The notes under the pieces: model-generated
Databases searched by the model: none
What the model was told of the DNA's origin: nothing
What the model saw: the letters and a program-made list of their open reading frames with translations, nothing else
Part shown: one piece after another, positions 7,670 to 56,382 of the stretch
Layout of the letters: every line of letters begins with the position of its first letter
Position numbering within the stretch: position 1 is the stretch's first letter
Position numbers and translations under genes: made by a program
Assembly (NCBI RefSeq): GCF_900115125.1
Contig: NZ_FOVJ01000001.1
Coordinates: forward strand, 467,852 to 531,851
Direction of reading: 5' to 3'
DNA from: Nitrosospira briensis
GTDB lineage: Bacteria; Pseudomonadota; Gammaproteobacteria; Burkholderiales; Nitrosomonadaceae
Length of the DNA stretch: 64,000 nucleotides

Positions 7670-7697
7670 CTCTGCAAACTGTTAAGGGGAGCACAAT

Positions 7698-34254: not shown

Positions 34255-34255
34255 C

Positions 34256-35503: not shown

Positions 35504-35590
35504 CGGACTTCAGGCAATAAAGCGGGGTGAAAGGTGTATCAGCACCAGACACCCCTGACCACAACGCAACCTTGATAGGAGGTAAGCATC

Positions 35591-36361: not shown

Positions 36362-36456
36362 ATTGTTCAAGCCACCCCTAGCCCGACGGGGCAAAAAGCG
36401 GAAACCTTCACCGCCTGGGGTGGCGTCTTAATGAAGGCACTTCGAAGGAGTGATGG

Positions 36457-37191: not shown

Positions 37192-37285
37192 CGTAGCGGT
37201 TTCGCTCTTTCTTTTCGCGTTAAAACTGCATTATTCGACTATGAAACGACATGACGTTTCACACCACTTAAAAGGAGCGTTCCGA

Positions 37286-37501
37286 ATGGCAAACAATTTT
37301 TCAAACTTCGGCAAGTTACCGATCGGCGGTTACATTCGCCAGTCGCAACTTATACCGGACATCGTACCGTTCTCTTCAGCTACGTTATGGAGAAAGGTAA
37401 AAACAGGGGAGTTTCCAGCACCAGTAAAGTTATCTGAACGAATCACGGCATGGGAAGTTAATGCCGTTCGGGAATGGCTGGACTCGAGAAAGGGGGCGTA
37501 A
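37286..37501 (+). CDS. alpA: AlpA-family transcriptional regulator
   Basis: 71 aa from the ATG at 37286 (AGGAG 8 nt upstream); an ATG at 37241 would add 15 residues. The winged-helix MerR-like core is seen as YIRQSQLIPDIVPFSSATLW, RKVKTGEFPAPVKLSERITA and WEVNAVREWL, the classic AlpA/DUF5710-like pattern. AlpA activates excision or early genes in P4/CP4-57-type islands. It overlaps the next gene by one base (TAATG). Confidence 0.9.
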   Translation: MANNFSNFGKLPIGGYIRQSQLIPDIVPFSSATLWRKVKTGEFPAPVKLSERITAWEVNAVREWLDSRKGA

Positions 37502-37923
37502 TGAACCCTCCAAAAGAAAACGCCCCGGCGGCAACCGAGGCGAGATTTGATACCAAACTGAACCGGAATTATAAACGACTGCCACCATACGGCAAGCAGT
37601 TTATGGCTATTAGGGAAGCAGGCAAAATTCCCGCCAAAACCGTCATGGTTTCTTTCGATTGGGATCTGGCCAAAGCCTATCCAAGAATCATCATTCCCGC
37701 TGATGTAACCCCGGCAGAGATTGAATTCAGATTCCTTGCCGGCCTGCCTGTTCAAATAACCTACCGCAACAAAGACGCGCATCGAGTGGATGCGGTCGCG
37801 CAGGAGATAGCTAAGGTTAATCCCTGCTTCCTTGCGACGTTTGCGTATGACTTTGCCGGTACTGGGAACGCTTGGGCGATCCTTAAGCCGTACCAAAGCC
37901 TTGAAATAGCGGAGGCCGCGTGA
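37501..37923 (+). CDS. Hypothetical protein upstream of the replication ATPase
   Basis: 140 aa. It starts in the TAATG overlap with alpA and ends in a TGATG overlap with the ATPase, so it is translationally coupled at both ends. The pattern IPAKTVMVSFDWDLAKAYPR and IEFRFLAGLPVQITY is unfamiliar; the predicted fold is mixed alpha/beta. A replication-linked accessory role is inferred only from coupling. Confidence 0.65.
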   Translation: MNPPKENAPAATEARFDTKLNRNYKRLPPYGKQFMAIREAGKIPAKTVMVSFDWDLAKAYPRIIIPADVTPAEIEFRFLAGLPVQITYRNKDAHRVDAVAQEIAKVNPCFLATFAYDFAGTGNAWAILKPYQSLEIAEAA

Positions 37924-38963
37924 TGCTTAAAGCTATGGAAACCGTAGAGGCAACACCTGAAGCGAAAGCAGCGTTTACCGCTTTAGCCAAGGTGATGAAG
38001 CCACAATTGCGGGTAGTGGGCCTCCATGACTTCATAGGAATGGAGTTGCCACCAAGAGATACGATGATGGCGCCCTGGCTGATGACCCAGAGCCTGAACA
38101 TGATTTACGGATGGCGAGGCGTCGGCAAAACTCACGTCAATTTGGGAATCAGCTACGCACTTGCTTGTGGTAGCACCTTCCTTAATTGGAAGGCAGAAAA
38201 ACCGAGAAGGGTTTTGCTTGTAGATGGGGAAATGCCTGCTCCAGCACTGCAGGAGCGACTAGCTGCAATCATTGCATCGAACGGCGTTGAGCCCGGCCCC
38301 GGCTTCCTTTCTATCGTTACCCCTGACCTACAGAACGGGGCTATGCCTGACCTTTCTACCCACGACGGCCAGGAAGCGATCAGCGAGGTCGCAGAGCGTG
38401 TAAATGCCGAGTTGATAGTGATAGACAACCTATCCTGCCTAGTGCGAGGTGGAGGCCGTGAGAACGACGCGGAAAGCTGGCTGAGCGTCTCTGAATGGGC
38501 GCTCCTACAGCGGCAAGCAGGGCGAAGCATTCTCTTTATCCATCACAGCGGAAAGAACGGGCAGCAACGGGGCACTTCAAAGCGGGAGGATTTGTTGGAT
38601 GTGGTTATCTCCCTCCGGAGGCCAGCCGATTATGACCCTGCGGCCGGCGCCTGCTTTGAAATTCATTACGAGAAAGCTAGACATCTATCCGGCAATGATG
38701 TCGATCCCATCGAAGCGCAATTGACCGTAGATTCTCATGGCATGAGTACATGGGCATGGCGCCCCGTCGCTGATTCAACCTTTGATCGTGTAGTCACTCT
38801 TGCAAATGACGGGCTATCCCAGAGTGAAATAGCCATCGAGCTAGAGCTCAACCGCTCTACTGTATTAAGGGCTTGGCGCAAGGCAGATGATGCGGGATTA
38901 CTGGAAACGAAGACCACAACCAGAGGCCGCAATCAGTACCAGAAAAGGAGTAAAGGGGAATGA
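37923..38963 (+). CDS. RepA-like RecA-fold ATPase (AAA_25), replication protein of the element
   Basis: 346 aa. Walker A is in YGWRGVGKTHVNLGISYALA and Walker B in ELIVIDNLSCL. A helicase-like SILFIHHSGKNGQQRGTSKR segment follows. The last 70 residues form an HTH (GLSQSEIAIELELNRSTVLR). This is the RSF1010 RepA/AAA_25 hexameric helicase class found in plasmids and satellites. Direct repeats spaced by exactly 23 bp begin about 145 bp after its stop, inside the next gene, consistent with a rep-ori unit. Confidence 0.87.
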   Translation: MLKAMETVEATPEAKAAFTALAKVMKPQLRVVGLHDFIGMELPPRDTMMAPWLMTQSLNMIYGWRGVGKTHVNLGISYALACGSTFLNWKAEKPRRVLLVDGEMPAPALQERLAAIIASNGVEPGPGFLSIVTPDLQNGAMPDLSTHDGQEAISEVAERVNAELIVIDNLSCLVRGGGRENDAESWLSVSEWALLQRQAGRSILFIHHSGKNGQQRGTSKREDLLDVVISLRRPADYDPAAGACFEIHYEKARHLSGNDVDPIEAQLTVDSHGMSTWAWRPVADSTFDRVVTLANDGLSQSEIAIELELNRSTVLRAWRKADDAGLLETKTTTRGRNQYQKRSKGE

Positions 38964-39343
38964 ATGCACAGTTAACAGAGAGCTTGTTGCATATTTCATT
39001 TCCTAGCAAAGCAACAATGCAACAACCACCTATAAATGACGCAACAAGCTATGCAACAACCACGCAACAGCCTACCCCTATACCAGCCTCATTGCTTGAT
39101 CTAGCACGCAACAAGCTATGCAACAACCACGCAACAAGCTCACCAAAAGACGCGCAACAAGCTCACCAAAAACAAGGGGTGGATGTTGCGCGATCTGAGC
39201 TGGTTAGATTGGTTCGTTTCTGTGGTGAAGCGTATGGCTTTACTGAGGAGGAACATACCGAGGCATTAACGCGAGCGTTGGCTGATTGCGATAGCGCGCT
39301 AACGTGCTTCCGTGCGATCAAGGCAGAGATACTTGATGAGTAA
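38960..39343 (+). CDS. Hypothetical protein overlapping the iteron region
   Basis: 127 aa, ATGA overlap with the ATPase. The first 65 residues are low-complexity Asn/Gln/Thr/Ala because the DNA consists of GCAACAAGCT-type repeats. The C-terminal 60 (ARSELVRLVRFCGEAYGFTE) looks like a real helical domain. It may exist mainly as a coding strip over the origin, with a small replication accessory domain at the end. No family recognised. Confidence 0.6.
   Translation: MNAQLTESLLHISFPSKATMQQPPINDATSYATTTQQPTPIPASLLDLARNKLCNNHATSSPKDAQQAHQKQGVDVARSELVRLVRFCGEAYGFTEEEHTEALTRALADCDSALTCFRAIKAEILDE
38981..39173. repeat. Iteron array, putative replication origin of the element
   Basis: GCAACAAGCT occurs at 39041, 39108, 39131 and 39154; the last three are spaced exactly 23 bp. 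An inverted copy (AGCTTGTTGC) is at 38981, and shorter GCAACAA forms fill the gaps at 39011, 39019, 39053 and 39120. Such phased repeats next to a RepA-type gene are typical iterons. Confidence 0.7.
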
Positions 39344-39459
39344 GCAGGGGGAGATGCATTCCTTAGCCTGCAGCTCTGGAGACCGCGCAGGTAGTCATTT
39401 ATTCGCACGTGCAGTTCAGAAAAACAGGTTTTTTAGCCGCATCAATTTAAGGAGAAAAA

Positions 39460-39732
39460 ATGGACTCGAAATTAGATAAAAGCATTCTGGCCACCCTGGA
39501 GAACGCAAGACGCACATCCGCCCAGGTATCCGAACTAATGATGATTGCCTTGCGCCGGTTTCATCCTGATGTAGCTGATGAGGTAGACGATCTGCTGGAG
39601 CTTGACCAGATCCGGCTGGTCGTCCAGTCTGACTCTGTCGAGTTAAAGCTCTTCGCCATTGATCAGCAAAACAACGCCGTTGGAGGGCAGCCGTTATTAA
39701 CCTATCGGCCGCAGGATAAGACATGCCATTAA
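39460..39732 (+). CDS. Hypothetical small protein of the element
   Basis: 90 aa; AAGGAG lies 9 nt upstream of the ATG. Helical N-terminal half (ILATLENARRTSAQVSELMM), then an acidic stretch (DVADEVDDLLELDQ). No known family. It overlaps the next gene by 10 bp, continuing the tightly packed late part of the element. Confidence 0.6.
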   Translation: MDSKLDKSILATLENARRTSAQVSELMMIALRRFHPDVADEVDDLLELDQIRLVVQSDSVELKLFAIDQQNNAVGGQPLLTYRPQDKTCH

Positions 39733-39890
39733 GCGGACGAGGAAACATTTACGTGCAAGCCATGCGAAAGGGTGGCAACCGGGCTGAAGCGCTGCGGAAA
39801 AGAAAGATCGAACAGCAGCTTATTAAGGAACTCGGGTATTCGAGGTCCAAAGCAAAGAGAATGGTCTCGGAGCTGGACAACGGAAAGTGA
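39723..39890 (+). CDS. Short basic protein of the element (55 aa)
   Basis: 55 aa, read directly from the sequence: ATG at 39723 to TGA at 39890. It starts MPLSGRGNIYVQAMRKGGNR and continues with a strongly basic helical part (ALRKRKIEQQLIKELGYSRS), ending SELDNGK. It overlaps both neighbours, by 10 bp upstream and GTGA downstream, which supports translation by coupling. The basic character suggests nucleic-acid binding; no family recognised. Confidence 0.6.
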   Translation: MPLSGRGNIYVQAMRKGGNRAEALRKRKIEQQLIKELGYSRSKAKRMVSELDNGK

Positions 39891-40261
39891 ACATAACCAG
39901 CTACCTGGAGACCGCATTACCACCGAGCCCAGAGCGTGACCAGCTTATCACCCTGGTACGCCTGGGGCTCTCATTCCAGAAACATCACAGGGTCGGAAAG
40001 AGGCCGGGTCCGTTAAAAGCATATCTTCTGAAGGTTACAGGCAGGATCGACGCCCCCCTCACGTTCGATCGGCTTTTAGAGGAACTGGAGCTTGAAGCTG
40101 TGCGCCGTGGGATGCACGGTACAGCGGCAAGCCCGGTTGAGAAAGTGGATCGAGTCTGGGAAATAATCACATACCATCACCCGCGAGCCGGCCGGCAGCA
40201 GCTCACATTCAAGACCCTTCGCAACAAACTCACTTGGTGTAAATTAAATCTAAACCAGTAA
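39887..40261 (+). CDS. Hypothetical protein of the element
   Basis: 124 aa from a GTG start within the GTGA overlap. Mixed composition with a basic middle (HHRVGKRPGPLKAYLLKVTG) and helical LTFDRLLEELELEAVRR. No known domain. Last of the coupled small genes before the capsid; a 96-bp AT-rich gap with a new ribosome binding site follows. Confidence 0.6.
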   Translation: MNITSYLETALPPSPERDQLITLVRLGLSFQKHHRVGKRPGPLKAYLLKVTGRIDAPLTFDRLLEELELEAVRRGMHGTAASPVEKVDRVWEIITYHHPRAGRQQLTFKTLRNKLTWCKLNLNQ

Positions 40262-40357
40262 TTCTCTGATACGCCCAATCAGGGAATTATCCTTTATATA
40301 CTTAGACATACTCTAATTTTTAGAGTAATTCTATGACATATATAAGGAGTTAACAAG

Positions 40358-41485
40358 TTGGATTACGAGATAAAAGAACTACTGGAAAAACAGGGCGACG
40401 CATTCGAAGAATTCAAGAGAGTCCAGGGAGGACGTATCGAGAACCTGGAGAGCGCACTAAACGAATTTGCAAAGAAGGCCGGACGTCCGAACATTGGCGG
40501 CGGTGGCTCTGCTGAGGACCTGGAGCACAAAAAAGCATTTTTGGGTTATATGCGCTCAGGAAAGGATCGCGACCTTGAGGCTAAATCCATGTCGGTTAAC
40601 AACGATCCGAGCGGCGGTTATCTGGTGCCTGAAGAGATCGACGGCACGATTTCAAAAGCGTTACGCGAACTCTCGCCGATGCGGCAACTAGCCCGCGTTA
40701 TCCCGGTAACTACCGGGGAATTCTCGATGCTACATAGCGTGGGCGGCACAGCTTACTCATGGGTGGGCGAGAAGTCCGCCAGGCCAGAGACCGGGAATCC
40801 GACGTTCGTAAAATTGATTCCTCCGATGGGGGAAATATACGCCAGCCCTGCAATTACCCAGAATCTGCTCGATGACAACAATTTCGGTCTCGAGGAGTGG
40901 CTGGTTGAGGAGGTTGTAGAGGCGTTCGGTGAAGGCGAAGGGGATTCGTTCGTCAACGGCAATGGAGTTAACAAGCCGCGCGGCATTTTGACCTACGACA
41001 TTGCCAGCACTGCGGACGGCGCCCGTGCGGAAAACGCGCTGCAGTATGTGGCTTCCGGAGCATCCGGAGCGTTCGCAGCAAGCAACCCTTCAGACAAGCT
41101 CATCAGCCTGGTTCATTCGGTAAAGCCGCGGTATCGCGTCAATGCCAAATGGTCCATGAACACAAACACAATCGAGCAAATCCGGACCTTTAAAAACACC
41201 GCCGGCGATTACATCTGGAAGCAGGGCATAGAAGCTGGCCAGCCCGGTACGCTGTTGGGCTACCCGGTATTCGAGGATGAAAATATGCCGGACATTGCCG
41301 CGAACAGCCTCTCAATCGCGTTCGGAGACTTTCAGCGTGGCTATGTGATTCTTGATCGCAACTCCTCGATGCTTCGCGACCCGTTCACTGCAAAACCTCA
41401 CGTACTGTTTTACACGACAAAGCGTGTGGGTGGCGGTATGCGGGATTTCCGCGCAATCAAGCTGATGAAGTTTGCCGCCAGCTAA
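40358..41485 (+). CDS. HK97-family phage major capsid protein
   Basis: 375 aa from a TTG start with AAGGAG 8 nt upstream. The N-terminal coiled scaffold-like delta domain (LLEKQGDAFEEFKRVQGG) leads into the HK97 fold: GGYLVPEEIDGTISKALREL, SPAITQNLLDDNNFGLEEWL, GDSFVNGNGVNKPRGIL and the C-terminal RVGGGMRDFRAIKLMKFA. Usually a protease and portal precede it; neither is present. It would form or subvert a capsid shell. A terminator follows immediately. Confidence 0.92.
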   Translation: MDYEIKELLEKQGDAFEEFKRVQGGRIENLESALNEFAKKAGRPNIGGGGSAEDLEHKKAFLGYMRSGKDRDLEAKSMSVNNDPSGGYLVPEEIDGTISKALRELSPMRQLARVIPVTTGEFSMLHSVGGTAYSWVGEKSARPETGNPTFVKLIPPMGEIYASPAITQNLLDDNNFGLEEWLVEEVVEAFGEGEGDSFVNGNGVNKPRGILTYDIASTADGARAENALQYVASGASGAFAASNPSDKLISLVHSVKPRYRVNAKWSMNTNTIEQIRTFKNTAGDYIWKQGIEAGQPGTLLGYPVFEDENMPDIAANSLSIAFGDFQRGYVILDRNSSMLRDPFTAKPHVLFYTTKRVGGGMRDFRAIKLMKFAAS

Positions 41486-41595
41486 TGAAATTCAATTGGC
41501 GTGTTTCAGTAAGTGCGCCCGATCAGTTGGCCAGTGCGAAAACCACAACAGCCTGCGGCAATTTCATTCCATTGGTTGCGCGGCAGGCAAAAGAG

Positions 41596-41623
41596 ACCCT
41601 CGGCCTAACAGCCGGGGGTTTTT
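41596..41623 (+). terminator. Terminator after the capsid gene
   Basis: ACCCTCGGC and GCCGGGGGT pair around CTAACA, followed by a short T-run. The position, 110 bp after the capsid stop, fits a late-gene terminator. Confidence 0.8.
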
Positions 41624-41724
41624 ACCAAGCAGGGGGTATTGTTTTGTTTGGAGAAGCAGTGCCTGGACACCGCGCCCCTCCTCACGCAGACAAAAAATCC
41701 CATATTTCAAAAAGAATTCAGCAA

Positions 41725-41871
41725 ATGGCAGGAGTGAAAGGTAAGAGTGGCGGGCCGCGCAAGAACGCAGGCGGCGCCAGACCTGGTGCCGGGACCGGTT
41801 CCGGGCGCCTACACTTTTTTTCATTTCCACAAAACAGAAAACTGAACAGGAGGATCTTTAAATGCCAATGA
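41725..41871 (+). pseudogene. Fragment with the N-terminus of a phage DNA-packaging-type protein
   Basis: A reading frame from the ATG at 41725 starts MAGVKGKSGGPRKNAGGARP, the basic N-terminus common on phage small terminase-like or DNA-binding proteins. After about 27 residues it loses the expected domain and ends in unrelated sequence. This marks a deletion joint between the capsid and tail-tip parts. A longer frame from 41485 crosses the terminator and is not believed. Confidence 0.5.
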
Positions 41872-42896
41872 TGATAGTGGCAATGCCTGCAATCATTGGA
41901 GGGATCGTAATGGCCGCCCCCATAGCCCTTTCCATCGGCACAACCGTATTCGGCGCGGTCCAGCAAAAATCAGCCGCCAAGAAAGCTAAGCGTAAGGCAG
42001 CGCAGGCCCGAGAAGATTTCCTGAACACATTACAAGAGCGAACGATCACCCGCATTGCGAGTGAGGCGCCGCATCGGTATGTATACGGTAAATCCAAGGT
42101 AGGATCAGACATTGTCGCCATATTCAAGAGCGGGGCGAATGATGAATATAAGCACCTAGTTTGCGTCCATGCGGCCGGCGAGTCGGAGTCGATTGATGAG
42201 GTTTACATCAATAACAAGCCGCTCGGTACGCTCGATGCTGATGGCTATGTCACCAGCGGGGAGTACTACTCGACGGCAACGGAGAACGCAACTGAGCAAT
42301 ACGGCACATCGCCTTTTACCCTGGCGCATACGCCATCAAGCGCGATCACAGTTGTTGCTTTCGGCAAGTCTTATTTAATGGGCATGTTTTTTCGGAACCA
42401 CAGCGGCGCCGTAGCTTATACGCGAGTCGGCAACACAATAACGGTAACAGGCAGCCTTTCCGGACCGATCCCAGGAACCACATTTGCGCTCGATGGCTAT
42501 CGAGTGACCTACCAGCACAAAGTCAACACGTCGCAAGTCAGGGTTAAAAAGCACCTGGGGGTCGCTGGTGATCCTGCCGATGCGTCATTGCTTGCAGAGT
42601 GCGGCGACAAGTGGAAGTCTACAGCGACCCTAACCGGATTCACTTATACCGTCATCCGGCTCGATCTGCGCCAGGCAGAGTTTCAAAACGGGATACCCGA
42701 TATCAGCGTGCTGATGAAGGGAAGAAAGCTCTTTGATCCCCGTACCGGCCTGACGGCGTGGAGCGCAAACCCGGCGCTGGTGATTTACGACTACCTCACA
42801 TCGGAAATGTGCGGCGTGGATCCGGACGACCTCCCGATATCACACTACATTACCGCGGCGAACGTCTGTGATGAACAAATTCAAGGACTATGTTAA
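41862..42896 (+). CDS. Phage tail-tip protein J-like, C-terminally truncated
   Basis: 344 aa; AGGAGG precedes the ATG. A hydrophobic N-terminus (MPMMIVAMPAIIGGIVMAAP) is followed by the J N-terminal features: APHRYVYGKSKVGSDIVAIF, KHLVCVHAAGESESIDEVYI and later ALVIYDYLTSEMCG with ITAANVCDEQI. Host-specificity J proteins run beyond 1,000 aa; this one stops just after the ANVCDE motif, about where the fibronectin and receptor-binding parts would begin. Probably a remnant or a reused adaptor. Its stop overlaps the next start. Confidence 0.8.
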   Translation: MPMMIVAMPAIIGGIVMAAPIALSIGTTVFGAVQQKSAAKKAKRKAAQAREDFLNTLQERTITRIASEAPHRYVYGKSKVGSDIVAIFKSGANDEYKHLVCVHAAGESESIDEVYINNKPLGTLDADGYVTSGEYYSTATENATEQYGTSPFTLAHTPSSAITVVAFGKSYLMGMFFRNHSGAVAYTRVGNTITVTGSLSGPIPGTTFALDGYRVTYQHKVNTSQVRVKKHLGVAGDPADASLLAECGDKWKSTATLTGFTYTVIRLDLRQAEFQNGIPDISVLMKGRKLFDPRTGLTAWSANPALVIYDYLTSEMCGVDPDDLPISHYITAANVCDEQIQGLC

Positions 42897-43348
42897 TGAA
42901 TAGAAGCTTTACCGTTAAATCTGAAGGCGGTTTATTGACAGCCTTAGCAACCCCTTGCCATGTCTCTCAAGCATTCAACCCAGCTAATGGAGTTCCTGAC
43001 TGCGCAACGATTCAATTTAACGCTTGCTGGGATACAGGCGCGACCAAATCAGTAATAACTCAGCGAGTCGTCGAGGCATGCGGCCTAAAATCTATCAGAG
43101 CTATAAAGCCAATCCTTTTACAAGGGGTAGATGGGTTCGAAAGGAGCGCAGCCTATGTAATAAATCTCTCTCTTCCCGACAAGGTTACCTTCCATAACTT
43201 CACTGTCGTCTCAAAGAATCCAGGCAATGTATGGTGGGATGTGCTAATTGGCATGGATATAATTTCTACCGGAGAGTTTTCGATAAGAAGCGTGAACGGT
43301 AAGACAGAGTGGTCATTCAGTTACGCATCCCGCAAAGCCGCGTCGTGA
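42896..43348 (+). CDS. Retropepsin-like aspartic protease domain protein
   Basis: 150 aa from the ATG in the TAATG junction at 42896. The active-site motif is WDTGATKSVIT with Asp46, and the C-terminal hydrophobic-Gly motif is DVLIGMDIIS. Between them lies a flap-like segment (LLQGVDGFERSAAYVI). Single-lobed retropepsins dimerise to form the active site. Bacterial members exist (aspartyl protease family, gag-asp_proteas-like), but a copy joined to tail genes is unusual; it might serve as a head-maturation protease or an anti-host function. Activity is inferred from motifs only. Confidence 0.8.
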   Translation: MNRSFTVKSEGGLLTALATPCHVSQAFNPANGVPDCATIQFNACWDTGATKSVITQRVVEACGLKSIRAIKPILLQGVDGFERSAAYVINLSLPDKVTFHNFTVVSKNPGNVWWDVLIGMDIISTGEFSIRSVNGKTEWSFSYASRKAAS

Positions 43349-43465
43349 TTGGAACCGATAGCTATGTTTCTGACGGCCAGGGGGTATCGTTTTCTTTGGG
43401 ACGATCGCTTCCAGACCGCGCTCTCAGGGTCCCGTTCATAAATCGTTACAATTTGGGCTATTTTT

Positions 43466-43882
43466 ATGGCTAAGAAATCATCCGCAAGTCTTACCGTTGT
43501 TCCCCCAGGCGTTGCCACCCTCCTATCGCCGCCGAAATCACTGACCACTCGACAGAAAGAGCTTTGGAAGGAGATTGTGCTATCAAAGCCGGCCAGCTGG
43601 TTTGACCCGTCGACTGCGCCGCTGCTTTCCGGATACGTCAAAGCCATTGCCTCTCATGAAGCCTTGGCATTGCGCTCTGACGCGATCGAGGCAACGCTGG
43701 ACGATGGCGGCGATTTGAAAACCCTGAATAGGATCCACGCAATGATTGAGCGGCAGGCGCGCCTTATTCAGACTTTCGCAACAAAACTGAGGCTTACACA
43801 GCAATCGCGCTATACGGCTGCTACTGCCGCTGTAATGTCGAGCAAGGCGTCAGGGCCCAGGCCATGGGGAGACGACAAATGA
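43466..43882 (+). CDS. P27-family small terminase subunit-like protein
   Basis: 138 aa. The pattern LTTRQKELWKEIVLSKPASW and the long helices DLKTLNRIHAMIERQARLIQ and LRLTQQSRYTA are those of P27-type TerS. The end RPWGDDK is also usual. TerS recognises packaging sites; with no large terminase in the element it would have to use a helper's TerL, as satellites do. Confidence 0.85.
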   Translation: MAKKSSASLTVVPPGVATLLSPPKSLTTRQKELWKEIVLSKPASWFDPSTAPLLSGYVKAIASHEALALRSDAIEATLDDGGDLKTLNRIHAMIERQARLIQTFATKLRLTQQSRYTAATAAVMSSKASGPRPWGDDK

Positions 43883-44411
43883 TTCTAGGCTCTACCAGAA
43901 GCCCTACAATCGATTTAAATGGAGGGGCGGCTACCACGGCATTGCCAAGGGTGGAAATAGATCAGCTATGAAGCGAATGAGCCGATTCAATAGCTATTGA
44001 AATAGCTGGTGCTTGGCCTCTAATTACACTAGACTACTTTAACAAGAAAACAAAATGCTTTCTTTCCACATTGTCTAGCATAAAGCCTGGTCCCATTCCG
44101 CAATGTTATCCAGGCCCTGCAAACCCACTGATAACCTTCAGGGGCTTTTTTCTGACTTTTTGTCATAAGCATTTACCTCCTTTCCGCGGGGTTTGCCCGC
44201 GCGCGTAAACGGTATTACCCAGCGGCGCGAAAAGAAAGAGAGGCCAAGCAGTTCTATTTATAAGCCTACCGAATGCGAATATCTATTGTACTTTAGTCCT
44301 ACAATGCAATATTCAATGCTGAGCTTGTGGCGGTATCTATGACGGTATCTGATCAACATATATAATAAATAAGCGATGTATTACAGATACTTATCCAGAT
44401 ACTGCGGATGT
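43883..44411. other. Right-end non-coding region of the element
   Basis: No gene found. Copies of the ATACCGT repeat are at 44209-44215 and 44342-44348, with a related GCGGTAT at 44330. A weak hairpin with a T-run (CAGGGGCTTTTTT near 44140) may end the small-terminase transcript. The sequence is AT-rich. Confidence 0.5.
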
Positions 44412-44425
44412 GACCCCCGCCTCCA
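44412..44425 (+). repeat. attR: 14-bp copy of the tRNA-Cys 3' end
   Basis: GACCCCCGCCTCCA, identical to 34079-34092. It is not part of a tRNA here; the bases before it do not continue the T-arm. Confidence 0.85.
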
Positions 44426-44458
44426 TATAACAATCCAAGTAAATCCAAGAACATCCTT

Positions 44459-44483
44459 AAACCCGCGTAACAGCGGGTTTTTT
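44459..44483 (+). terminator. Rho-independent terminator just outside attR
   Basis: AAACCCGC and GCGGGTTT pair around GTAACA, followed by TTTTTT. This may be the original terminator of the tRNA-Cys transcript, displaced by the insertion. The remaining 44484-44905 shows no gene. Confidence 0.8.
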
Positions 44484-44905
44484 ATTGATTAGTTCATCTA
44501 ATAGGGGATGGCCATATGGTACCAGCTATTTTTTTTCGGATTGTACCTGATTGACGCGGTTGGCCGGGTTAGATATGACCGGAAGTGGGTCAATCTCCTG
44601 CATTTGTTTGCTGTCGCCATTTTCCAGCCGATAAGCTGCTTCCAGTTCGTTCTTTAGTGGGTACAAAGTGACCCAGTCTTTGCTCTCGTTATTAGCAATT
44701 CTTTTCGCTTAATCAATATCTTAATTTAGGTCCCGTCCTGGCATAGGGCTTGCTAGAAGTATGATGTAGGACATGGTTTCTTGATAACCACAATTGCTGC
44801 ACATACGGTTAGGGAAATCGTGAGGTAGGTCGAATGCAGGCACTAAATGGCTGGAGCCAGATGGATCTCTGTAACTTAACTATTGCGAACTTTGGAGGTA
44901 ATTAA

Positions 44906-45139
44906 ATGGAGACTAAAACAGGAATTTCACCTTCACCTAATCCTTCCGCGAATGTGGTGCGGGTTTCGCTTCCGGCGGACGTTCACAATGATCTTAAGAA
45001 ATTTCAGCAAATACAGCAAGATATTTTGGGGAAATTGGGCTGTATGGCCTGTTGCTCGGGTTGGGATATCCGCTTCACTGTCCAGAAACAGTTTGTAGTA
45101 GACAACGCTTTGACCGTTAAGGAAATCGTTGCCGAGTAA
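44906..45139 (+). CDS. Candidate RiPP precursor or metal-binding small protein with CxxCC motif
   Basis: 77 aa; GGAGGT lies 6 nt before the ATG, a very strong ribosome binding site. Residues 17-44 look like a leader-type amphipathic helix (VVRVSLPADVHNDLKKFQQI). The core-like part is LGCMACCSGWDIRFTVQKQF, with Cys46, Cys49 and Cys50. The gene for an MNIO-type enzyme starts 9 bp downstream, and these enzymes modify Cys in precursor peptides. Hence a substrate role is likely, but the protein lacks a signal peptide and could instead be a small metal chaperone. Confidence 0.7.
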   Translation: METKTGISPSPNPSANVVRVSLPADVHNDLKKFQQIQQDILGKLGCMACCSGWDIRFTVQKQFVVDNALTVKEIVAE

Positions 45140-45148
45140 ATTAATATA

Positions 45149-46633
45149 GTGATAAATTTTAAGCCTCCTCCGCTTGGAGTCGGTATGGTCTATTTTCCCG
45201 CGCTCGAACCGATTTTCGGGCGAGGGGGGGCTTTGCTAGACGCATTAGATATGCTTGAGGTTGAGCCTCAGGCGTTTTGGTTTCCCAATCACAACGGCGG
45301 TGACCATCACTTGGATCAGCGCGTCTTTGAAAGATTGGCCAAGTTATCTCAACCTAAACTGATACACGGCGTAGGGCTACCATTGGCCACTACCGTAGAG
45401 TTCGACTCTCAACAGATCGCGCCTTGGCAGCAGAGTATCGATAGATTAAATCCTCCTTGGGTTAGCGAGCATCTCGCCTTCATGCGTGTGGCAAGCAACG
45501 AGCCCGGGGTCAAGAGTCGACACAGCGGCTTTTTATTGCCACCTCTGCAATGTCAAGAGACGGTAGACATCGCTGTAGCTCGGATCGCTGATTTACGGCG
45601 CCTGAGCGGCAGGGCCGTGGCGTTTGAAATTTCACCTAATTATCTGCAACCGCAGCCGGGGGAAATGGCAGATGGTGAGTTCTTCGCGCGACTGGCAATA
45701 GAGGCAGACTGTGGCATCGTACTAGATTTGCATAACTTGTGGTGCAATGAGCGCAATGGCCGCCAGTGCGTGCAGGAAGTGATGGAGAGCTTGCCATTAG
45801 ATCGCGTCTGGGAAATTCACCTTGCCGGTGGCGAAAGCTATGAAGGGTACTGGCTGGATGCGCATAGTGATCTCGTGCCACAGCCTGTCATGAATCTATA
45901 CGAGCAATGGCTGCCCAAGCTAGAAAATTTAGCAGCGCTGGTGTTCGAGATTATGCCTGACTACGTACAAGCCAAGCAGCTCTCACCAGACCAGCTTATC
46001 CAGCAGATTCAGGCAATGAAGTCGCTCTGGCGCTTTGGGCCCACAGCCTCATCCTTGCATTCTTGCAGGCATATCAATTCGATAACAACTGCATCAATGC
46101 CTGCAGATGGCGTTAAATCCGTGGCAAGCGTGAAGGTCATGGGGTGGGAACAGTCTCTGGGAGCGCTAGTCAACGGACGGGAACGGCCGATGGTTTCCGA
46201 CGATTTCGCTAATCTTGAAGACGATCCGGGTGTGCCAGTATACAAATCGTTGGTTGAAAGTTTTCGAGCTGGTACCTTGGCGGAAGGACTGACGCTAAGC
46301 TATCGTCTATTGGTGTTAACGTTAGGCAAGACTGCTACCCTTAGCTTGATGCGGCAGTTTTGGAGCAGCAATTGGCCGGAGCCCTTTGCCTTCGATGAAA
46401 TGCTCGGCTTTGCTGCCTTCCTGCATCAACGCATGGTACAGGGGACACTAACAGTTGCTTTTCTTGAGAACGTACTTAACTACGAACTTGCCCGCGCTCA
46501 AGCACAGCAGACCGGAAAGGAGCGGTTCGTGGCTTTTAATTGTGAACCTATTGCACTGTTACGATCCCTTTCTCACGGACATCTGCCGGTCGAGGTGGCA
46601 TACGGCGAGTTTGAAGTGCATGTGCCTGGTTGA
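45149..46633 (+). CDS. MNIO (DUF692) family enzyme fused to a HvfC/MbnC-like partner domain
   Basis: 494 aa from a GTG start coupled to the previous gene. Residues about 8-295 form a divergent DUF692 TIM barrel: SEHLAFM (E107, H108), FEISPNYL (E160, N164), GIVLDLHNLW (D193, H195, N196), EIHLAGG (H224), LDAHSD (D237, H239) and FEIMPD (E267), which match the metal-ligand motifs of MbnB/TglH enzymes. Residues about 345-494 resemble the separate partner protein (YRLLVLTLGKTATLSLMRQF ... LENVLNYELARAQA). MNIOs are multinuclear iron oxidases that modify cysteines. The fusion is unusual. Confidence 0.8.
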   Translation: MINFKPPPLGVGMVYFPALEPIFGRGGALLDALDMLEVEPQAFWFPNHNGGDHHLDQRVFERLAKLSQPKLIHGVGLPLATTVEFDSQQIAPWQQSIDRLNPPWVSEHLAFMRVASNEPGVKSRHSGFLLPPLQCQETVDIAVARIADLRRLSGRAVAFEISPNYLQPQPGEMADGEFFARLAIEADCGIVLDLHNLWCNERNGRQCVQEVMESLPLDRVWEIHLAGGESYEGYWLDAHSDLVPQPVMNLYEQWLPKLENLAALVFEIMPDYVQAKQLSPDQLIQQIQAMKSLWRFGPTASSLHSCRHINSITTASMPADGVKSVASVKVMGWEQSLGALVNGRERPMVSDDFANLEDDPGVPVYKSLVESFRAGTLAEGLTLSYRLLVLTLGKTATLSLMRQFWSSNWPEPFAFDEMLGFAAFLHQRMVQGTLTVAFLENVLNYELARAQAQQTGKERFVAFNCEPIALLRSLSHGHLPVEVAYGEFEVHVPG

Positions 46634-46704
46634 GATGTTCGAGTGCCGTCATGGTTTGGCGTCGTATTTCCAATGCTAGTGAATCGGTTGCCTTTATTAG
46701 CAAG

Positions 46705-46720
46705 CCCGCGGTTTCGCGGG
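46705..46720. repeat. Perfect short hairpin between MNIO gene and next gene
   Basis: CCCGCG and CGCGGG around GTTT. No T-run follows, so a leader structure or attenuator rather than a terminator is more likely. Confidence 0.45.
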
Positions 46721-46853
46721 GACATAATGTACGGACATTTGCTCATGGGTCAAAGTGGTACGGACTCTGAAACCATTTTTCTGGTCAGCCTACGGGGTCA
46801 ATTTCAGCCCAATTACTTGGGCTGGCAAACTTAATTACAAGGAGCGCTTCATT

Positions 46854-47198
46854 ATGCAAGCCAATTTAAATCGAGCCAACACCTTTGAACTTAGTGGAAA
46901 ATCGATTCATGTCACCTACACAAGCACAGGTATTTCTGGACAACCGACCTTCAGTTATCGCGATGATCGGTTAAGCCGTTCCTTTAGCGGAGAAGAGATT
47001 CGTGTTGCGGACACTGAGCTTGGCCAGTTGATTACAGTAACATTGGAAGCAATTCCAGACTTTAAAGTCGTGACCGTTACGTTGGCTCTACCTGTAGTCA
47101 CTGTGCCCCAGGCTAATACTCCAATAGGTATCACGGTCCCCGGAATTACTGTTACAAATCCCACAACAATTGGTGGTCCGAAGCTGCTAGGACCATGA
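46854..47198 (+). CDS. Small beta-rich protein of unknown function
   Basis: 114 aa from the ATG at 46854 (AAGGAG about 9 nt upstream). It begins MQANLNRANTFELSGKSIHV and continues in alternating beta pattern (IRVADTELGQLITVTLEAIP), ending in a Pro/Thr/Gly/Val stretch. No signal peptide or known domain. It follows the MNIO gene by about 220 bp on the same strand, and a terminator stands about 250 bp behind it. Membership in the MNIO pathway is possible but not shown. Confidence 0.65.
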   Translation: MQANLNRANTFELSGKSIHVTYTSTGISGQPTFSYRDDRLSRSFSGEEIRVADTELGQLITVTLEAIPDFKVVTVTLALPVVTVPQANTPIGITVPGITVTNPTTIGGPKLLGP

Positions 47199-47451
47199 CC
47201 GGAAAAACTCTATTCCATCGTCAATATGAGAGGAACTGCTCATTTTTTTCAGTTTTAGCATGATAATTGGTTCTCTGATTGAGGAGTATGCGATCCAGCT
47301 CACGTAAAGGATTTCCGTGAGAACCGTAGTAAAGCGTTCGCGGCAAAAATAACGTTCGCCTTGTCATCATAGTTACGAAGGAAACTGCCCGAGTGTGAAG
47401 CAGGAGAAGATGCTAGCAGATATAGAGTGCGAAATACTCACTCCGAAACCT

Positions 47452-47479
47452 AACCCACCCCTAACCCGGTGGGTTTTTT
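47452..47479 (+). terminator. Rho-independent terminator
   Basis: AACCCACC and GGTGGGTT form the stem, followed by TTTTTA. It closes the MNIO region on the plus strand. Confidence 0.75.
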
Positions 47480-47504
47480 AATCCGTGTGGCAGCTGAAAT
47501 AAAA

Positions 47505-47525
47505 AATGGGGACAAAGTCCCCATT
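47505..47525 (-). terminator. Terminator of PEP-CTERM gene 3
   Basis: AATGGGGAC and GTCCCCATT around AAA. Read on the minus strand it is followed by TTTTTATTT. It lies directly behind the stop of the PEP-CTERM gene. Confidence 0.8.
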
Positions 47526-47528
47526 GGT

Positions 47529-48146
47529 CTACATGGAAGAGCTTTTTCGACGCCGAGCCATAAGACTCACCAATCCTAAACCGGCCAAAAGCATGGCATA
47601 GCTCTCAGGTTCGGGTACGTTACTAACGATGAGATTGTCCATAGTGAAGTTAGAGGTGGAAGACCCGTACAATGGATTACGTGTCCCGCCAGTTGCCGAA
47701 ATCAACACAGTGTCAACGTTCTGCCAGTTGAAAGTTTCCAAGTTTCGCCCAGTGGCATTAACCGTGAATAACTTTGTATCTACGATGAGGCCGCCCGATT
47801 GTCCCTCAACTGTGACTTGAAGACCATCCTTAAAAGCCGAACCGAAATAGGCGCTATTTAAGGTAAACGGGGTGGTGGATTCGAATTGAGCAGGCAACCC
47901 GCCGTGATTCACGGCAAGGTATCTCAATGACACTAAGCCGTTTCTTGCCCCAGAGCTCTCAAAGCCGGACGTACTACTAAACGGATTTACATAATCAAAA
48001 TTAGTCCATTTAAATCCTTCGTAGTTATCGGGCACACTGCTGGCGCTAAGATTGCTTATCTCGTCGAACGTAATGAGTTTTGTCGCATGGGAAGTTGATG
48101 TAAAGGTGAAAAGAGCAGCAGCTATAAGAAGTGATTGCCGGTTCAT
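47529..48146 (-). CDS. PEP-CTERM sorting domain protein
   Basis: 205 aa from the ATG at 48146 (AGGGA 8 nt upstream); a longer frame to 48203 is not needed. The signal peptide ends near TSTSHAT (residue 22). The body begins LITFDEISNLSASSVPDNYE, a pattern found in many PEP-CTERM proteins with a jelly-roll-like fold. The sorting signal is VPEPESYAMLLAGLGLVS followed by ARRRK. Function unknown. Confidence 0.88.
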   Translation of the reverse strand: MNRQSLLIAAALFTFTSTSHATKLITFDEISNLSASSVPDNYEGFKWTNFDYVNPFSSTSGFESSGARNGLVSLRYLAVNHGGLPAQFESTTPFTLNSAYFGSAFKDGLQVTVEGQSGGLIVDTKLFTVNATGRNLETFNWQNVDTVLISATGGTRNPLYGSSTSNFTMDNLIVSNVPEPESYAMLLAGLGLVSLMARRRKSSSM

Positions 48147-48385
48147 GAAAATTTCCCTATGTGGTGGTTGTTCTTGGTATTGAGGCATAAGTTGTTCCGC
48201 CAAACCTTGGGCGAAACTTTTTAACTATAGATCATCCTCAGCAATTCGCTACCGAAACTGATTATTTAATTTTTAGTGATGTAGCCCACTTCTGGTGCGT
48301 TTTTTTATGCCCGCCGCGAGCGGTATTTTTTTAGCGTAAACAAAATGAACCCATTAGCTCTAGCCTTCGCAATCGCCTATACGCA

Positions 48386-48718
48386 ATGCTCGCGGCAGCA
48401 ATTATCGGGGTGAAAGAAGTCACTGACGCGCTGGACGCAAAGAAACAAGCTGCCGATGCAGCGATGAAAAATGGTCGGTATTGGGCAAGCAAACATACGA
48501 CGCTCGCGGAAGAGGTCAATAGCCTTCCGGTTCGCCCTGATGAGACTCAACGTCAGGCGATTGAGAGGGAGCAGAAAGAGTATGTTCAAACCGCGCTCGG
48601 TCATGATGCGCCGGAGCAGGTCTTGCCATGCTGGAGCCATGTTCCGTTGCCCACTCTCCCGCAGGCGCACAGTGCGTTCCGGGCTTCCCGGATCTCGGCA
48701 GAGATCATCTCTTTTTAA
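48386..48718 (+). CDS. Doubtful reading frame, possible gene remnant
   Basis: 110 aa without a ribosome binding site. The first 75 residues are plausibly helical (VKEVTDALDAKKQAADAAMK). The end, from about 80, reads antisense-like Pro/Ser/His sequence. A short frame from the ATG at 48345 (MNPLALAFAIAYT) overlaps it in another frame, as if a frameshift separated the two. I treat it as a possible pseudogene. Confidence 0.25.
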   Translation: MLAAAIIGVKEVTDALDAKKQAADAAMKNGRYWASKHTTLAEEVNSLPVRPDETQRQAIEREQKEYVQTALGHDAPEQVLPCWSHVPLPTLPQAHSAFRASRISAEIISF

Positions 48719-48939
48719 TGATCCGTACATACGTAGGAGAGAACATTGTCGTCCTGATCCAGCATTTCCTCCAGGTGTGCCGCGTTCTCTTCTCCCACGT
48801 CGATAACCGCCAGATCATGCTTACCGTTGTAGCGCTGGATCGCATCTCGCCACGAGCCGTCGCATGCAAGGGCAAGCACGTTTACGGCAAACCGCCCCTG
48901 ATTGGCGAAGATGATTTTGTAGCTTCTGGTAGCTGCCAT
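48715..48939 (-). CDS. Small hypothetical protein
   Basis: 74 aa; AGAGGA lies 8 nt upstream of the ATG. It begins MAATRSYKIIFANQGRFAVN with an alternating beta-alpha pattern and an acidic C-terminal part (DVGEENAAHLEEMLDQDD). Soluble, two Cys. No family recognised. It stands alone between non-coding stretches. Confidence 0.6.
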   Translation of the reverse strand: MAATRSYKIIFANQGRFAVNVLALACDGSWRDAIQRYNGKHDLAVIDVGEENAAHLEEMLDQDDNVLSYVCTDH

Positions 48940-49341
48940 TTTATTTTTCCTCTTGGTTTGGCTTGGTTAATCGGTTGCTGCGTGATTTGCACTTTACAAA
49001 AATATTGTTCCGGTTGCCAGGAAGGAAAGAGGAATATTCTTTAGTAGTAGTGAGATGCCCAAATCCTCGCGCTGAGCTATCCTTGCTCTATCAGCATGTG
49101 AGGGGAACCCGTGGTCTAGACTCAGGTAATCGAAAAGCCGTATCCGATCTACCGCGAGATTAACATGCCGGATGAGTGCAAGGACTCGTAGGCCCTAGCT
49201 CGAGTGCCGGTAAAGGACGATGCGCTGGTAATCAATCGGGCTCTGCGGTCGGAGATAGAACAGAGGTCTGCCTGTGAAGTGATGGTGAAGGCATTGCCAT
49301 GCCAACAAGCTTTCCACGCAAATGGTATCAATCGTTAATAG
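48940..49341. other. Stretch without a supported gene
   Basis: Short frames only, none with a ribosome binding site. Around 49200-49320 the plus strand reads ALVINRALRSEIEQRS without an intact start, interrupted by a stop at about 49188; this could be the tail of a decayed gene. Confidence 0.35.
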
Positions 49342-51897
49342 TTACTCTTTGTTGCTTGCATCAATCTCTATGAGCAATGAATGCAACTTGTCTATTTCGA
49401 CGGGTTTGGTAAGGTGATGGTCGAATCCAATATTTTTCGCCTGCCGCCGGTCGTCTTCGGACCCCCATCCGGTCAAAGCTACAAGGGTCAAGCCCTTTAT
49501 AGCCGAATCGGAATGTAGTTGTCGCGCAACTTCGTACCCACTCATGCCGGGAAGGTCAATGTCGAGAAACATCACGGTAGGTTGAAAGGCCTGGACGGCC
49601 TTCAGCGCGTCCGGCCCAGTATGAGCCGTCTCTACCGTATGCCCGGACAACGCAAGCAACATGGCGAGCGTCTCAGCACCATCCACATTGTCGTCCACTA
49701 CTAAAATGCGACGGGGAATAGATAGACTACAGGAGCGCTGCTCTCCAGCGACCCGCTGCCCTCCGGTTTTTTGCATCGCCGCGAGGGGAAGACGGACAAC
49801 GAACGCGCTACCTTTCCCTGGGCCTTGACTTTCGGCCGTGACATGTCCGTTATGCATTTCGACGAGTCGCTTGACGATGGCCAACCCGATCCCCAATCCT
49901 CCTCGTGAGCGATCCAGCGTTTTCCCGACCTGGTTAAATAAGTCGAATACCTTTGTGAGTGCCTCCGGGGTAAGGCCAACCCCGTTGTCCCGCACCTGGA
50001 TGACGACTTCGCTGCCGTCTCTCTGGGCGGATAATTCGACTCGCCCTCCTTCAGGAGTATACTTTGCTGCGTTATTCAGAAGATTACTTACCACCTGTGC
50101 CATACGGACTGGATCGACATCAAGCAGGAGCGCCTCTTCAGGAGTCGAAACCAACAGCTCGTGCCGGCCTTCCTCAATAAGAGGCCGGCTCAGTTCAAGA
50201 GCTGTCTCCAATACTGTGCCGACATCTACCGGCTCTTTCTTGAGCTGAACCTTTCCTCTGGTAATGCGCGAAACGTCAAGCAGATCGTCGATGAGGCGAA
50301 CCATATGTTCGACCTGTCGCTCCATGATCTCCCGTGTCTTCACTGTTGCATCGATTGAGGATGCCAGCTCGAGTACAGCAAGCCCGGTGCGAATGGGAGC
50401 AAGAGGATTTCTTAGTTCATGAGCCAGCGTGGCGAGAAATTCGTCCTTTCGTTGATCTTGCTCCCGCACCTGCTCATAAAGATAGGCGTTTTCGATCCCG
50501 GCAGAGGCGATCGCGGCAAGCTGTACGAGAATCGCTTCGTCCTCCTCGGTAAATTCGCCGTGAGCCTTGTCCGTTAGCTGGACCAGCCCGAGGTTCTTTC
50601 CCCCGTGACCGATTAGCGGCACAGCAAGCCAGCCCCGCATGGGCGGGTGATCTTTGGCATGTTTTCCAAACCCTTTCCATGCTGGATGGGCTTCCAGCTC
50701 TTTTTGGGTCATCCTCAGTGGACAATTGGTACGACACACCTCGATGTAAATGCCAGATCCGTCCGGCTTCTCGGAATAGGCCCGGTAATCGGCGTACTTG
50801 TCTGATAGCGACACCGCGGTAATACGTTGAGCCCAGTTTTCTGAAACAGTCAGGGAGGTGGCTGCCTGGTGAGCTCCGAGCATAGAGCGAGCCTCTTCGG
50901 TCAAAGTCCGGGCAATACTCTCCATGGACAACATTCCGTTTATCGACTTGCTTGCATTGGCTACCTGCGCCAGAAGCGTGGCGCGCTGTTTCTCCTTCGC
51001 AAGGAGAGCGGCCATCTGCTCCTCGGATTGCTTGCGTTCGGTGATATCGAGCAGATTTCCCGCATATCCGAGGAATTGCCCATTCGAGGAAAGGCGAGGG
51101 CGACCTCGGTCGATGATCCAACGGTACACGCCATCGGCCCGCCGCAAACGATATTCGATTGAGAATGCCTCATTCCGCTCGTTTGCAGACAGGAAATGTT
51201 TGCCTGCTGCCGCTCGATCGCTTGGATGTATGGCATTGAGCCACCCCAAACCCAGGCCTTCATCCTCGCCCTGGCCGGTAAACTCGTACCACCCTTGTGA
51301 GAGGAAAGAGCACGAGCCGTCTGGCTCGGTCACCCATAGCATGGCGGGGGCAGCGTTGGCAAAGTCACGGAACCGTTCTTCGCTTTGCTGGAGGGCCTGC
51401 TCGGCCCACTGGTGCTGCGACGCCATGATTACCTGGTTAGCAGCGAGCCGCAGCAGCAGGCGTTCTTTCTCGGTTGGAAAGTTTACGCGCTGGGAACCGG
51501 CAACTAAAACGCCATGCTCCCCGACCAAATCGAACCGAGTGACGGTCGTTCGCAGAGTTCCGGGTCCAAACGGATCGCGCACCATAGTTACCGGCGCCAA
51601 GGCAACACCCTTCAAGAACGGCGCGAGCCGCACTTTTGCTTCGTAAATGCAATGGTTGGCATCAGGCCGATGCTTGCTACTTACAGTCTCTGTAAAACCA
51701 GAGCCTCCAGGCTGGGCAAGCTGAATGTAGACCAAGTCGAGATCAAGAGTACTCAAGAGAACCTGGGCGAGGCTCTTGGCAATACCGTCAGATCCCAAGC
51801 CGACCCACGCCGCAGGCAGGCTCGAGAAAGCTACTAGATCTCCCATTGCTCGCTGCAAGCAGCCTACTTTATCACTATCGTTGTAAGTTATATCCAT
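49342..51897 (-). CDS. Hybrid sensor histidine kinase (GAF-PAS-GAF-HisKA-HATPase-REC)
   Basis: 851 aa from the ATG at 51897; a TTG at 51933 is an alternative. In order: a GAF-like input domain (about 20-165), PAS (RFRDFANAAPAMLWVTEPDG ... DITERK), a second GAF (about 310-475), HisKA with ATLAHELRNPLAPIRTGLAV, HATPase (NAAKYTPEGG, DNGVGL, GGLGIGLAIVKRLVEMHNG) and a C-terminal receiver with phospho-Asp in VMFLDIDLPGMSG. No membrane segment is seen, so it senses a cytoplasmic signal. The output partner is not adjacent. Confidence 0.92.
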   Translation of the reverse strand: MDITYNDSDKVGCLQRAMGDLVAFSSLPAAWVGLGSDGIAKSLAQVLLSTLDLDLVYIQLAQPGGSGFTETVSSKHRPDANHCIYEAKVRLAPFLKGVALAPVTMVRDPFGPGTLRTTVTRFDLVGEHGVLVAGSQRVNFPTEKERLLLRLAANQVIMASQHQWAEQALQQSEERFRDFANAAPAMLWVTEPDGSCSFLSQGWYEFTGQGEDEGLGLGWLNAIHPSDRAAAGKHFLSANERNEAFSIEYRLRRADGVYRWIIDRGRPRLSSNGQFLGYAGNLLDITERKQSEEQMAALLAKEKQRATLLAQVANASKSINGMLSMESIARTLTEEARSMLGAHQAATSLTVSENWAQRITAVSLSDKYADYRAYSEKPDGSGIYIEVCRTNCPLRMTQKELEAHPAWKGFGKHAKDHPPMRGWLAVPLIGHGGKNLGLVQLTDKAHGEFTEEDEAILVQLAAIASAGIENAYLYEQVREQDQRKDEFLATLAHELRNPLAPIRTGLAVLELASSIDATVKTREIMERQVEHMVRLIDDLLDVSRITRGKVQLKKEPVDVGTVLETALELSRPLIEEGRHELLVSTPEEALLLDVDPVRMAQVVSNLLNNAAKYTPEGGRVELSAQRDGSEVVIQVRDNGVGLTPEALTKVFDLFNQVGKTLDRSRGGLGIGLAIVKRLVEMHNGHVTAESQGPGKGSAFVVRLPLAAMQKTGGQRVAGEQRSCSLSIPRRILVVDDNVDGAETLAMLLALSGHTVETAHTGPDALKAVQAFQPTVMFLDIDLPGMSGYEVARQLHSDSAIKGLTLVALTGWGSEDDRRQAKNIGFDHHLTKPVEIDKLHSLLIEIDASNKE

Positions 51898-51942
51898 CGA
51901 GCCGTTGGTCCTGGGGATACCCGCTTGCTTCAAGTAGTATCT

Positions 51943-52354
51943 TCACTCCCGAGAGCGAGCAATTTTTGCTTTCCATCTAAAGCTCGTTGCGTTAGAGCGG
52001 CTCAATCTCTGTTCTTTCTTCAAAGACAAGCCCGCAGCCTCGCGAAAAAAAACCGTTGCAACCACCTCAAGAGAGAATTTACAGCTCTCCAATGTCGCTA
52101 ATTTACGGAGAATTGGGAATGCAGTTATTACCTTCTTCGCTAGTGCAGTCTTTATAATACACGTGGATTGCCGCACATCCCAATATCTAAAGGATGGTGC
52201 GCGGGAGTTGACAGGCCGCATTCCCGTAGCGGGACGGACGGATTTGTTGAAGTCAGACCCAGTAAAAGATGCGAGGGTGGAGCATGGCGAGGGTCTAATT
52301 TAGCAAAAAACCAGCGCAGTATGTTAAAACGCGTGAAGGACTTAGGGGACAAAA
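51943..52354. other. Intergenic stretch without a gene
   Basis: Several overlapping frames exist on both strands, but none has a ribosome binding site or a recognisable domain. It contains the start regions of the hybrid kinase (minus) and the small gene at 52355 (plus). Confidence 0.35.
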
Positions 52355-56058: not shown

Positions 56059-56091
56059 TTTGCCGGTAACTTGACGAAAAGGAGTTTTGAA

Positions 56092-56301: not shown

Positions 56302-56382
56302 TCGATTTCCGCTTTTTGTTAATTTCTATTAATTCAAATGATAAGAGTGTTTAGTTGAAGAATAACATTAAGGATTCTGATT

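Follow-up and report, generated by a model that had tools for sequence, protein, structure and literature searches.

What does a small cysteine-containing protein do when its gene stands directly ahead of an enzyme of the MNIO family, and what is the extra domain that this enzyme carries at its C terminus? These questions are raised by a stretch of 64,000 nucleotides (nt) of the Nitrosospira briensis genome (contig NZ_FOVJ01000001.1, positions 467,852 to 531,851), hereafter the window, in which a gene for a 77-residue protein is followed by a gene for an MNIO with a fused candidate partner domain. Our analysis indicates that the two genes probably form a self-contained cassette similar to those for ribosomally synthesized and post-translationally modified peptides (RiPPs), in which a cytosolic precursor would be modified at a CxxC(C/H)SGxD core by the MNIO-partner fusion.

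A small cysteine protein and an MNIO fusion recur as a pair

Both open reading frames (ORFs) and the strong ribosome binding site described in a first-pass annotation of the window were confirmed, with the small gene ending 9 nt ahead of an enzyme that matches PF05114. The small-protein gene was found in 12 genomes in total; one of these, G1537, in which a contig end cuts the start of the gene, is counted as a genome and left out of the linkage and conservation analyses. At all 11 testable loci (the window, G256, Lysobacter (Novilysobacter) spongiicola, Glutamicibacter soli, five more genomes of the L. spongiicola family, G1393 and G1432) the next gene on the same strand encodes an MNIO fusion of 455-498 residues, so that, as the first-pass annotation had anticipated, no homologue of the small protein lacked an MNIO neighbor (0/11). 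The distance between the two genes ranged from a 4-nt overlap to 32 nt at the nine loci measured. As the pair recurs in distant genomes, the association is more than chance. Comparison of 107 neighboring ORFs of 90 residues or more revealed no other gene shared between any of the 11 loci at E ≤ 1e-5, the exceptions in this comparison being three close relatives (L043, L044 and L045) and one match between L010 and L064 (188 residues, 33%).

Within the family of the window genome, the small protein was matched only in the window genome itself, the other 124 of 125 genomes giving no match, and a class sample of 369 genomes added one further genome, G256, after four weak matches had been rejected. 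The family and order of G256 comprise 4 genomes, with the gene in G256 only; here two tandem small genes (53 and 48% identical) precede one enzyme, as expected of substrates. A genome-contig scan that used two narrow patterns and a two-enzyme alignment yielded 257 stretches and two relatives, in L. spongiicola DSM 21749 and the actinomycete G. soli NHPC-3, which is a lower bound. Profile searches then gave 6/297 genomes in the L. spongiicola family, 4/250 in the order of the window genome (window included), and G. soli plus one weak match among 197 genomes of the Glutamicibacter family. A phylum sample of 398 genomes gave the window plus six weak matches that were rejected. Because the class, phylum, order, L. 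spongiicola and Glutamicibacter family sets are samples of larger groups, these counts are not a census.

Several candidates were discarded on inspection. For the weak matches in G372, G298, G214 and G462, a motif scan gave only a chance CSMSGYD frame, and those of the phylum sample (G601, G852, G736, G596, G709 and G660) were rejected after their loci had been read. Two of the latter resemble the core: G709 has a 48-residue frame ending in GCAICCSGFDL (L090, 6676-6822) between two unrelated genes on a 9-kb contig devoid of an MNIO, and G601 has a 65-residue frame (27 bits) with no MNIO in the 9 kb read. We take both frames to be chance, and they may be strays of the core. In G1362, the weak match of the Glutamicibacter family (E = 4.3e-4), the core motif was absent from the 10 kb read.

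The small protein has a conserved core and no visible signal peptide

Within the limits used, the 77-residue protein matched nothing in Pfam, NCBIfam or PHROG. We read its conservation from an alignment of 12 full-length family members (72-86 residues, 2-3 cysteines), two of them from G256. Twelve residues are invariant (P23, L41, L44, G45, C46, C49, S51, G52, D54, R56, F63 and L69), and most other positions vary. The expectation that C46, C49 and C50 are all fixed held for the first two (12/12) and failed for the third, which is Cys in six proteins, His in six, and Leu in the five sister precursors described below. The three positions C46-C50 stand 27-31 residues from the encoded C terminus, and D54 is likewise internal, with 23 residues after it. 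By eye, the N-terminal pattern VxRVSLPA...DL...Q..IL reads as a strand followed by a helix.

Peak N-terminal hydrophobicity was 0.47-1.52 in the 12 proteins versus 2.06-2.28 in three MNIO precursors with signal-peptide-like N termini, as gauged with a plain Kyte-Doolittle window, which is a crude measure and not a signal-peptide predictor. By this measure none of the 12 has a hydrophobic N-terminal stretch, in agreement with the earlier proposals that the precursor lacks a signal peptide and that the cassette thereby differs from bufferin-type systems.

The enzyme retains the MNIO iron-ligand positions

The enzyme matches PF05114 (MbnB_TglH_ChrH) over residues 54-265 with E = 1.2e-40 and 139.8 bits (cut-off 25). 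All of its NCBIfam matches fall far under the curated cut-offs: BufB 122.8 bits (cut-off 310), ApyH, the second-best, 84.3 (400), HvfB 77.9 (360), ChrH 55.2 (600) and MbnB (TIGR04159) 21.4 (325). The iron ligands of TglH are His71, His107, Glu151, Asp184, Asn187, His216, Asp229, His231 and Glu258 (PMC10880893), and they align with H73, H108, E160, D193, N196, H224, D237, H239 and E267 of the window enzyme. All nine positions are invariant in 11/11 aligned fusions, the window included, and in 5/5 MNIOs of the sister operons. The first-pass annotation had called the metal-ligand motifs recognizable and altered; recognizable they are, and the ligands themselves are unchanged, the Glu of FEISPNYL aligning with TglH E151.

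An AlphaFold2 model of the enzyme, built from three sequences, had a mean predicted local distance difference test (pLDDT) score of 65.9. The closest solved structure to model residues 1-301 was TglH (8hi7_B; Z 28.9, root-mean-square deviation 2.9 over 283 residues), followed by MbnB (Z 24.6-25.5). The window enzyme is 36-48% identical to eight related fusions, and a tree of the 11 fusions and four bufferin-type MNIOs separated the two groups with support of 100/100. The window genome encodes one other MNIO, which matches PF05114 over its whole length and is preceded by an EF-hand precursor whose N terminus is signal-peptide-like.

The fused domain is a separate gene in sister operons

Residues 328-494 gave no Pfam match, and DUF2063 was found neither in the window enzyme nor in the C-terminal domains of five relatives. 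A domain-profile search of the 297 genomes of the L. spongiicola family returned 15 genomes: the six with the cassette, a further six at E ≤ 1e-17, and three with weak matches (G1065, G923 and G879; E = 7e-5 to 4e-4). In five of the six further genomes, the domain is matched in a gene of its own that follows an MNIO (E = 4.5e-19 to 4.8e-18). These sister operons share one order: a precursor-like protein of 69-80 residues, an MNIO of 305-318 residues beginning 8-23 nt later, and a separate partner of ~193-225 residues whose gene begins at or just before the MNIO stop. Since the domain is a stand-alone gene here, the fused tail corresponds to an MNIO partner that is encoded separately elsewhere.

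The sister precursors carry PG(I/F)(R/K)GCRPCLSGLDR near their end. In their core, GCRPCLSGLD, both cysteines and the S, G and D of GCxxC(C/H)SGxD are preserved, and the third position is Leu in 5/5 cases; the pattern common to both forms is therefore CxxC-x-SG-x-D and not CxxCC.

We compared the partner domains with known partners by profile alignment. After two fusions and four sister partners had been added, a profile of 11 fused and four separate partners matched three DUF2063-carrying partners in hhalign at 89% probability (P = 2.2e-6, score 46.2); the best of 60 column-shuffled controls scored 19.8. The separate partner of L085 showed sub-threshold matches to DUF2063 (E = 0.0085) and HvfC (E = 0.09). 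Together these results bear out the earlier proposal of a partner domain fused to the enzyme: its C terminus holds ~165 residues homologous to the separate partners of five sister operons and DUF2063-like in kind. The structure-library matches were filled by the barrel and yielded nothing on the partner domain.

A gene resembling cysteine dioxygenase (PF05995, E = 1.2e-13 to 8.7e-13) lies 555-576 nt upstream of the MNIO at four of the five sister loci. A literature search on MNIOs with cysteine dioxygenase, RiPPs and Lysobacter found nothing.

Proposed mechanism and alternatives

How might the cassette work? The 77-residue protein is very likely the substrate of the fusion. In TglHI, substrate-peptide binding falls to the partner (PMC10880893); with the partner tethered here, we expect that the conserved N-terminal half of the small protein docks on the fused partner domain and that this domain presents the CxxC(C/H)SGxD core to the barrel's iron centre. 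The enzyme would then oxidize C46 and/or C49, since both are invariant and most known MNIOs act on Cys (PMC12452194), and on balance we favor Cys as the modified residue. The oxidation would most likely yield a heterocycle of the thiooxazole or oxazolone-thioamide type, a Cys-derived product that we put forward tentatively. As no signal peptide is visible and the cassette loci have no exporter or protease gene in common, the modified protein would most likely stay in the cytosol, uncleaved, and act whole as a ligand or buffer of a metal, probably copper. Metal binding is itself a possible function at best, a guess by analogy with bufferins and from the Cys/His swap.

Several observations weigh against this scheme, which is a proposal from sequence and predicted structure. 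The nine fused domains alone matched the DUF2063 partners weakly (15%, P = 0.00038 in hhalign), and no relevant PDB sequence match was found for the fused domains. No confident placement came from a read-through model of precursor and enzyme (pLDDT 32-41 across the core), and the cassette includes no metal gene. The link between the two genes has one exception in the reverse direction, a frame-broken fusion lacking a recognizable small gene in G969 (L084, 3223-4915), apparently a decayed cassette; it lies outside the 11 fusions, which came via the small protein or the enzyme scan. Finally, Asp54 and Ser51 are as conserved as both cysteines, and the target may therefore not be Cys.

This last point opens an alternative in which the enzyme modifies a core residue other than Cys, such as Asp54, and CxxC(C/H) only binds metal or holds the fold. 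Asp, Asn and Phe are among the residues on which MNIOs act (PMC12452194), ApyH, the second-best NCBIfam match of the enzyme, acts on Asp, and D54, S51 and G52 are invariant in 12/12 small proteins and present in the five sister precursors. ApyH and MovX, however, act on C-terminal residues (PMC12452194) whereas D54 is internal, and C46 and C49 are equally invariant, which makes this alternative unlikely in our estimate.

The small protein might instead be a cofactor or chaperone subunit, for example delivering iron via CxxCC/CxxCH, with the real substrate elsewhere. Its conservation on both sides of the core and a C-to-H swap at position 50 that fits a metal ligand would agree with such a role, but its position, size and Cys core match known MNIO precursors, its gene is duplicated in tandem in G256, and no other candidate substrate is common to the loci; we regard this role as quite improbable. 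That the window cassette is decaying mobile cargo without present function, as its position next to a remnant prophage and the missing matches elsewhere in the family might suggest, is hardly credible, as neither frame is interrupted, the ribosome binding site is a strong one, and ligand positions and core residues have been retained although the enzyme is no more than 36-48% identical to the other aligned fusions.

We thus retain the two-gene cassette in which the MNIO-partner fusion would modify a cytosolic precursor at its core. A bolder version of it is doubtful: a mobile minimal system in which a single-chain MNIO and partner would rewrite the CxxC(C/H/L)SGxD core of a cytosolic mini-protein, possibly by Cys-Asp joining, to give a new modified intracellular metalloprotein and not an exported peptide. 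The cassette would offer a simple system for structural and chemical work, with a single-chain MNIO, a 77-residue candidate substrate and no other common genes. By varying one core position among C, H and L while C46, C49 and D54 stay fixed, nature has set up an experiment on which residues the enzyme modifies. If the product is cytosolic, MNIO products would have a wider role than that of exported copper ligands.

Genomic context of the cassette

The cassette follows a remnant prophage (34205-43882) that stands beside a tRNA-Cys gene and that we treat as context and not as part of the cassette (Table 1). An att repeat of the tRNA region was looked for and not found, which leaves the prophage without a defined right end. 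The first-pass annotation had extended the cassette to position 47198, which takes in a third ORF (46854-47198); we leave it out of the cassette because, among the cassette loci compared, its only match was the window's own copy. This ORF encodes 114 residues, carries the stretch PVVTVPQANTPIGITVPG and gave a weak DUF7160 match (E = 0.021).

Table 1. Features of the window and of the sister operons (positions in the window, except in the last row)
Feature	Position	Strand	Remarks
Precursor-like gene, 77 aa	44906-45139	+	ORF present; core LGC46MAC49C50SGWD54IRF; no visible signal peptide
Ribosome binding site GGAGGT of the 77-aa gene	44894-44899	+	6 nt before ATG
MNIO enzyme with fused partner domain, 494 aa	45149-46633	+	GTG start; PF05114
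MNIO TIM-barrel domain, residues 1-301	45149-46051	+	TglH fold; iron-ligand positions
Fused partner domain, residues 328-494, DUF2063-like (PME-type 2-like)	46130-46630	+	Homology to separate partners; hhalign
tRNA-Cys	34019-34092		
Integrase	34205-35503		Remnant prophage
AAA protein	37920-38963		Remnant prophage
Capsid	40358-41485		Remnant prophage
Tail-fibre fragment	41862-42896		Remnant prophage
Retropepsin-like aspartyl protease, 152 aa	42890-43348		PF13975, PF13650; among remnant prophage genes
Terminase small subunit	43466-43882		Remnant prophage
Sister three-gene system	L085 3502-6167; L086-L089 likewise		GCRPCLSGLD precursor, MNIO, DUF2063-like partner

We searched 23 genomes of the genus with the DNA of positions 43900-52300, scoring the best 13 candidates or fewer per genome. 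Among the matches listed, none from the other 22 genomes fell inside the cassette (query 1007-2734), and seven of these 22 match from query 5396-5483 onward at 77-90%. The absence of a cassette DNA match in the genus and of a protein match in the family suggests that the cassette was gained by transfer. In phage and plasmid records the window small protein had no match, and precursors of the CH type and of the sister operons had none in plasmid searches. MNIO matches occurred in 337 plasmid records, none covering 80% of the fusion. One viral match (L032, E = 3e-6) was rejected as the start of a 200-residue ORF, acetyltransferase-like by eye, with no MNIO noticed in the ORF list; three other viral scans found no relative.

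The window also encodes, 7 kb downstream of the cassette at 53668-56694, a heavy-metal P-type ATPase with two HMA domains and, after it, a metal-sensing repressor (PF02583). In G256 (L010, 5017-7028 beside 7350-9414) the cassette comes directly after a bufferin-type operon of signal-peptide-like Cys precursor, MNIO and DUF2063 partner, so that two MNIO systems adjoin.

Relation to known systems

Is the layout new, as the first-pass annotation had supposed in assigning it to no known MNIO family? Its precursor family is very probably already in print: Antoine et al. (2025, PMC12452194) list adjamnio-7, a family of signal-peptide-less CxxC precursors of MNIO cluster 7, which is predicted only, with WP_078758616 of Novilysobacter spongiicola as its representative. 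The N. spongiicola genome encodes two MNIOs: one is the cassette fusion, and the other follows an EF-hand/EGKCG precursor whose N terminus is signal-peptide-like. By elimination, the cassette precursor family is very probably adjamnio-7; both lack a signal peptide, carry CxxC and neighbor an MNIO. The text of PMC12452194 makes no mention of the fused partner, the CxxC(C/H)SGxD core, the switch at the third position or the sister form, which its figures and supplements may show, and in the literature searched the name adjamnio-7 occurred in no other paper. For most characterized MNIOs the partner is a protein of its own (PMC12452194). Our literature searches, which covered listings, the starts of abstracts and passages of PMC13174530, found no MNIO-DUF2063-like fusion; PMC12452194 mentions a fusion of an MNIO with a nitroreductase, and MovX, which has an additional winged helix domain.

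Among other families, adjamnio-IV (PMC12452194) shares the CxxCC motif and the MNIO neighbor but has 119-146 residues and 5-6 cysteines, well outside the small-protein family described above. MovX, of a Vibrio methanobactin-like system, is likewise an MNIO whose additional domain may take the partner's place, yet by its description that domain is a winged helix-turn-helix and the target a C-terminal Asn (PMC12452194). Its low scores set the enzyme apart from methanobactin MbnB and from aminopyruvatide ApyH, and for the latter the small protein also lacks a C-terminal Asp.

The bufferin (BufA/B/C) and oxazolin (HvfA/B/C) systems are alike in combining an MNIO, a DUF2063-type partner and a Cys core; bufferins show absorption near 305 nm (PMC12452194). 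The cassette differs from them in that its precursor has no visible signal peptide, its motif is another and its partner is fused; it has no separate PME-type 1 partner with a DUF2063 signature, and its BufB and HvfB scores fall far below the cut-offs. TglH/TglI, of the pearlin 3-thiaglutamate, provides the closest solved fold, with the same nine ligand positions and a partner protein, but TglA is changed at an added C-terminal Cys whereas the cassette core is internal and the cassette partner fused. The fused domain itself has the features of a PME-type 2 partner: it lacks the DUF2063 signature, is related to DUF2063 and is encoded with its MNIO.

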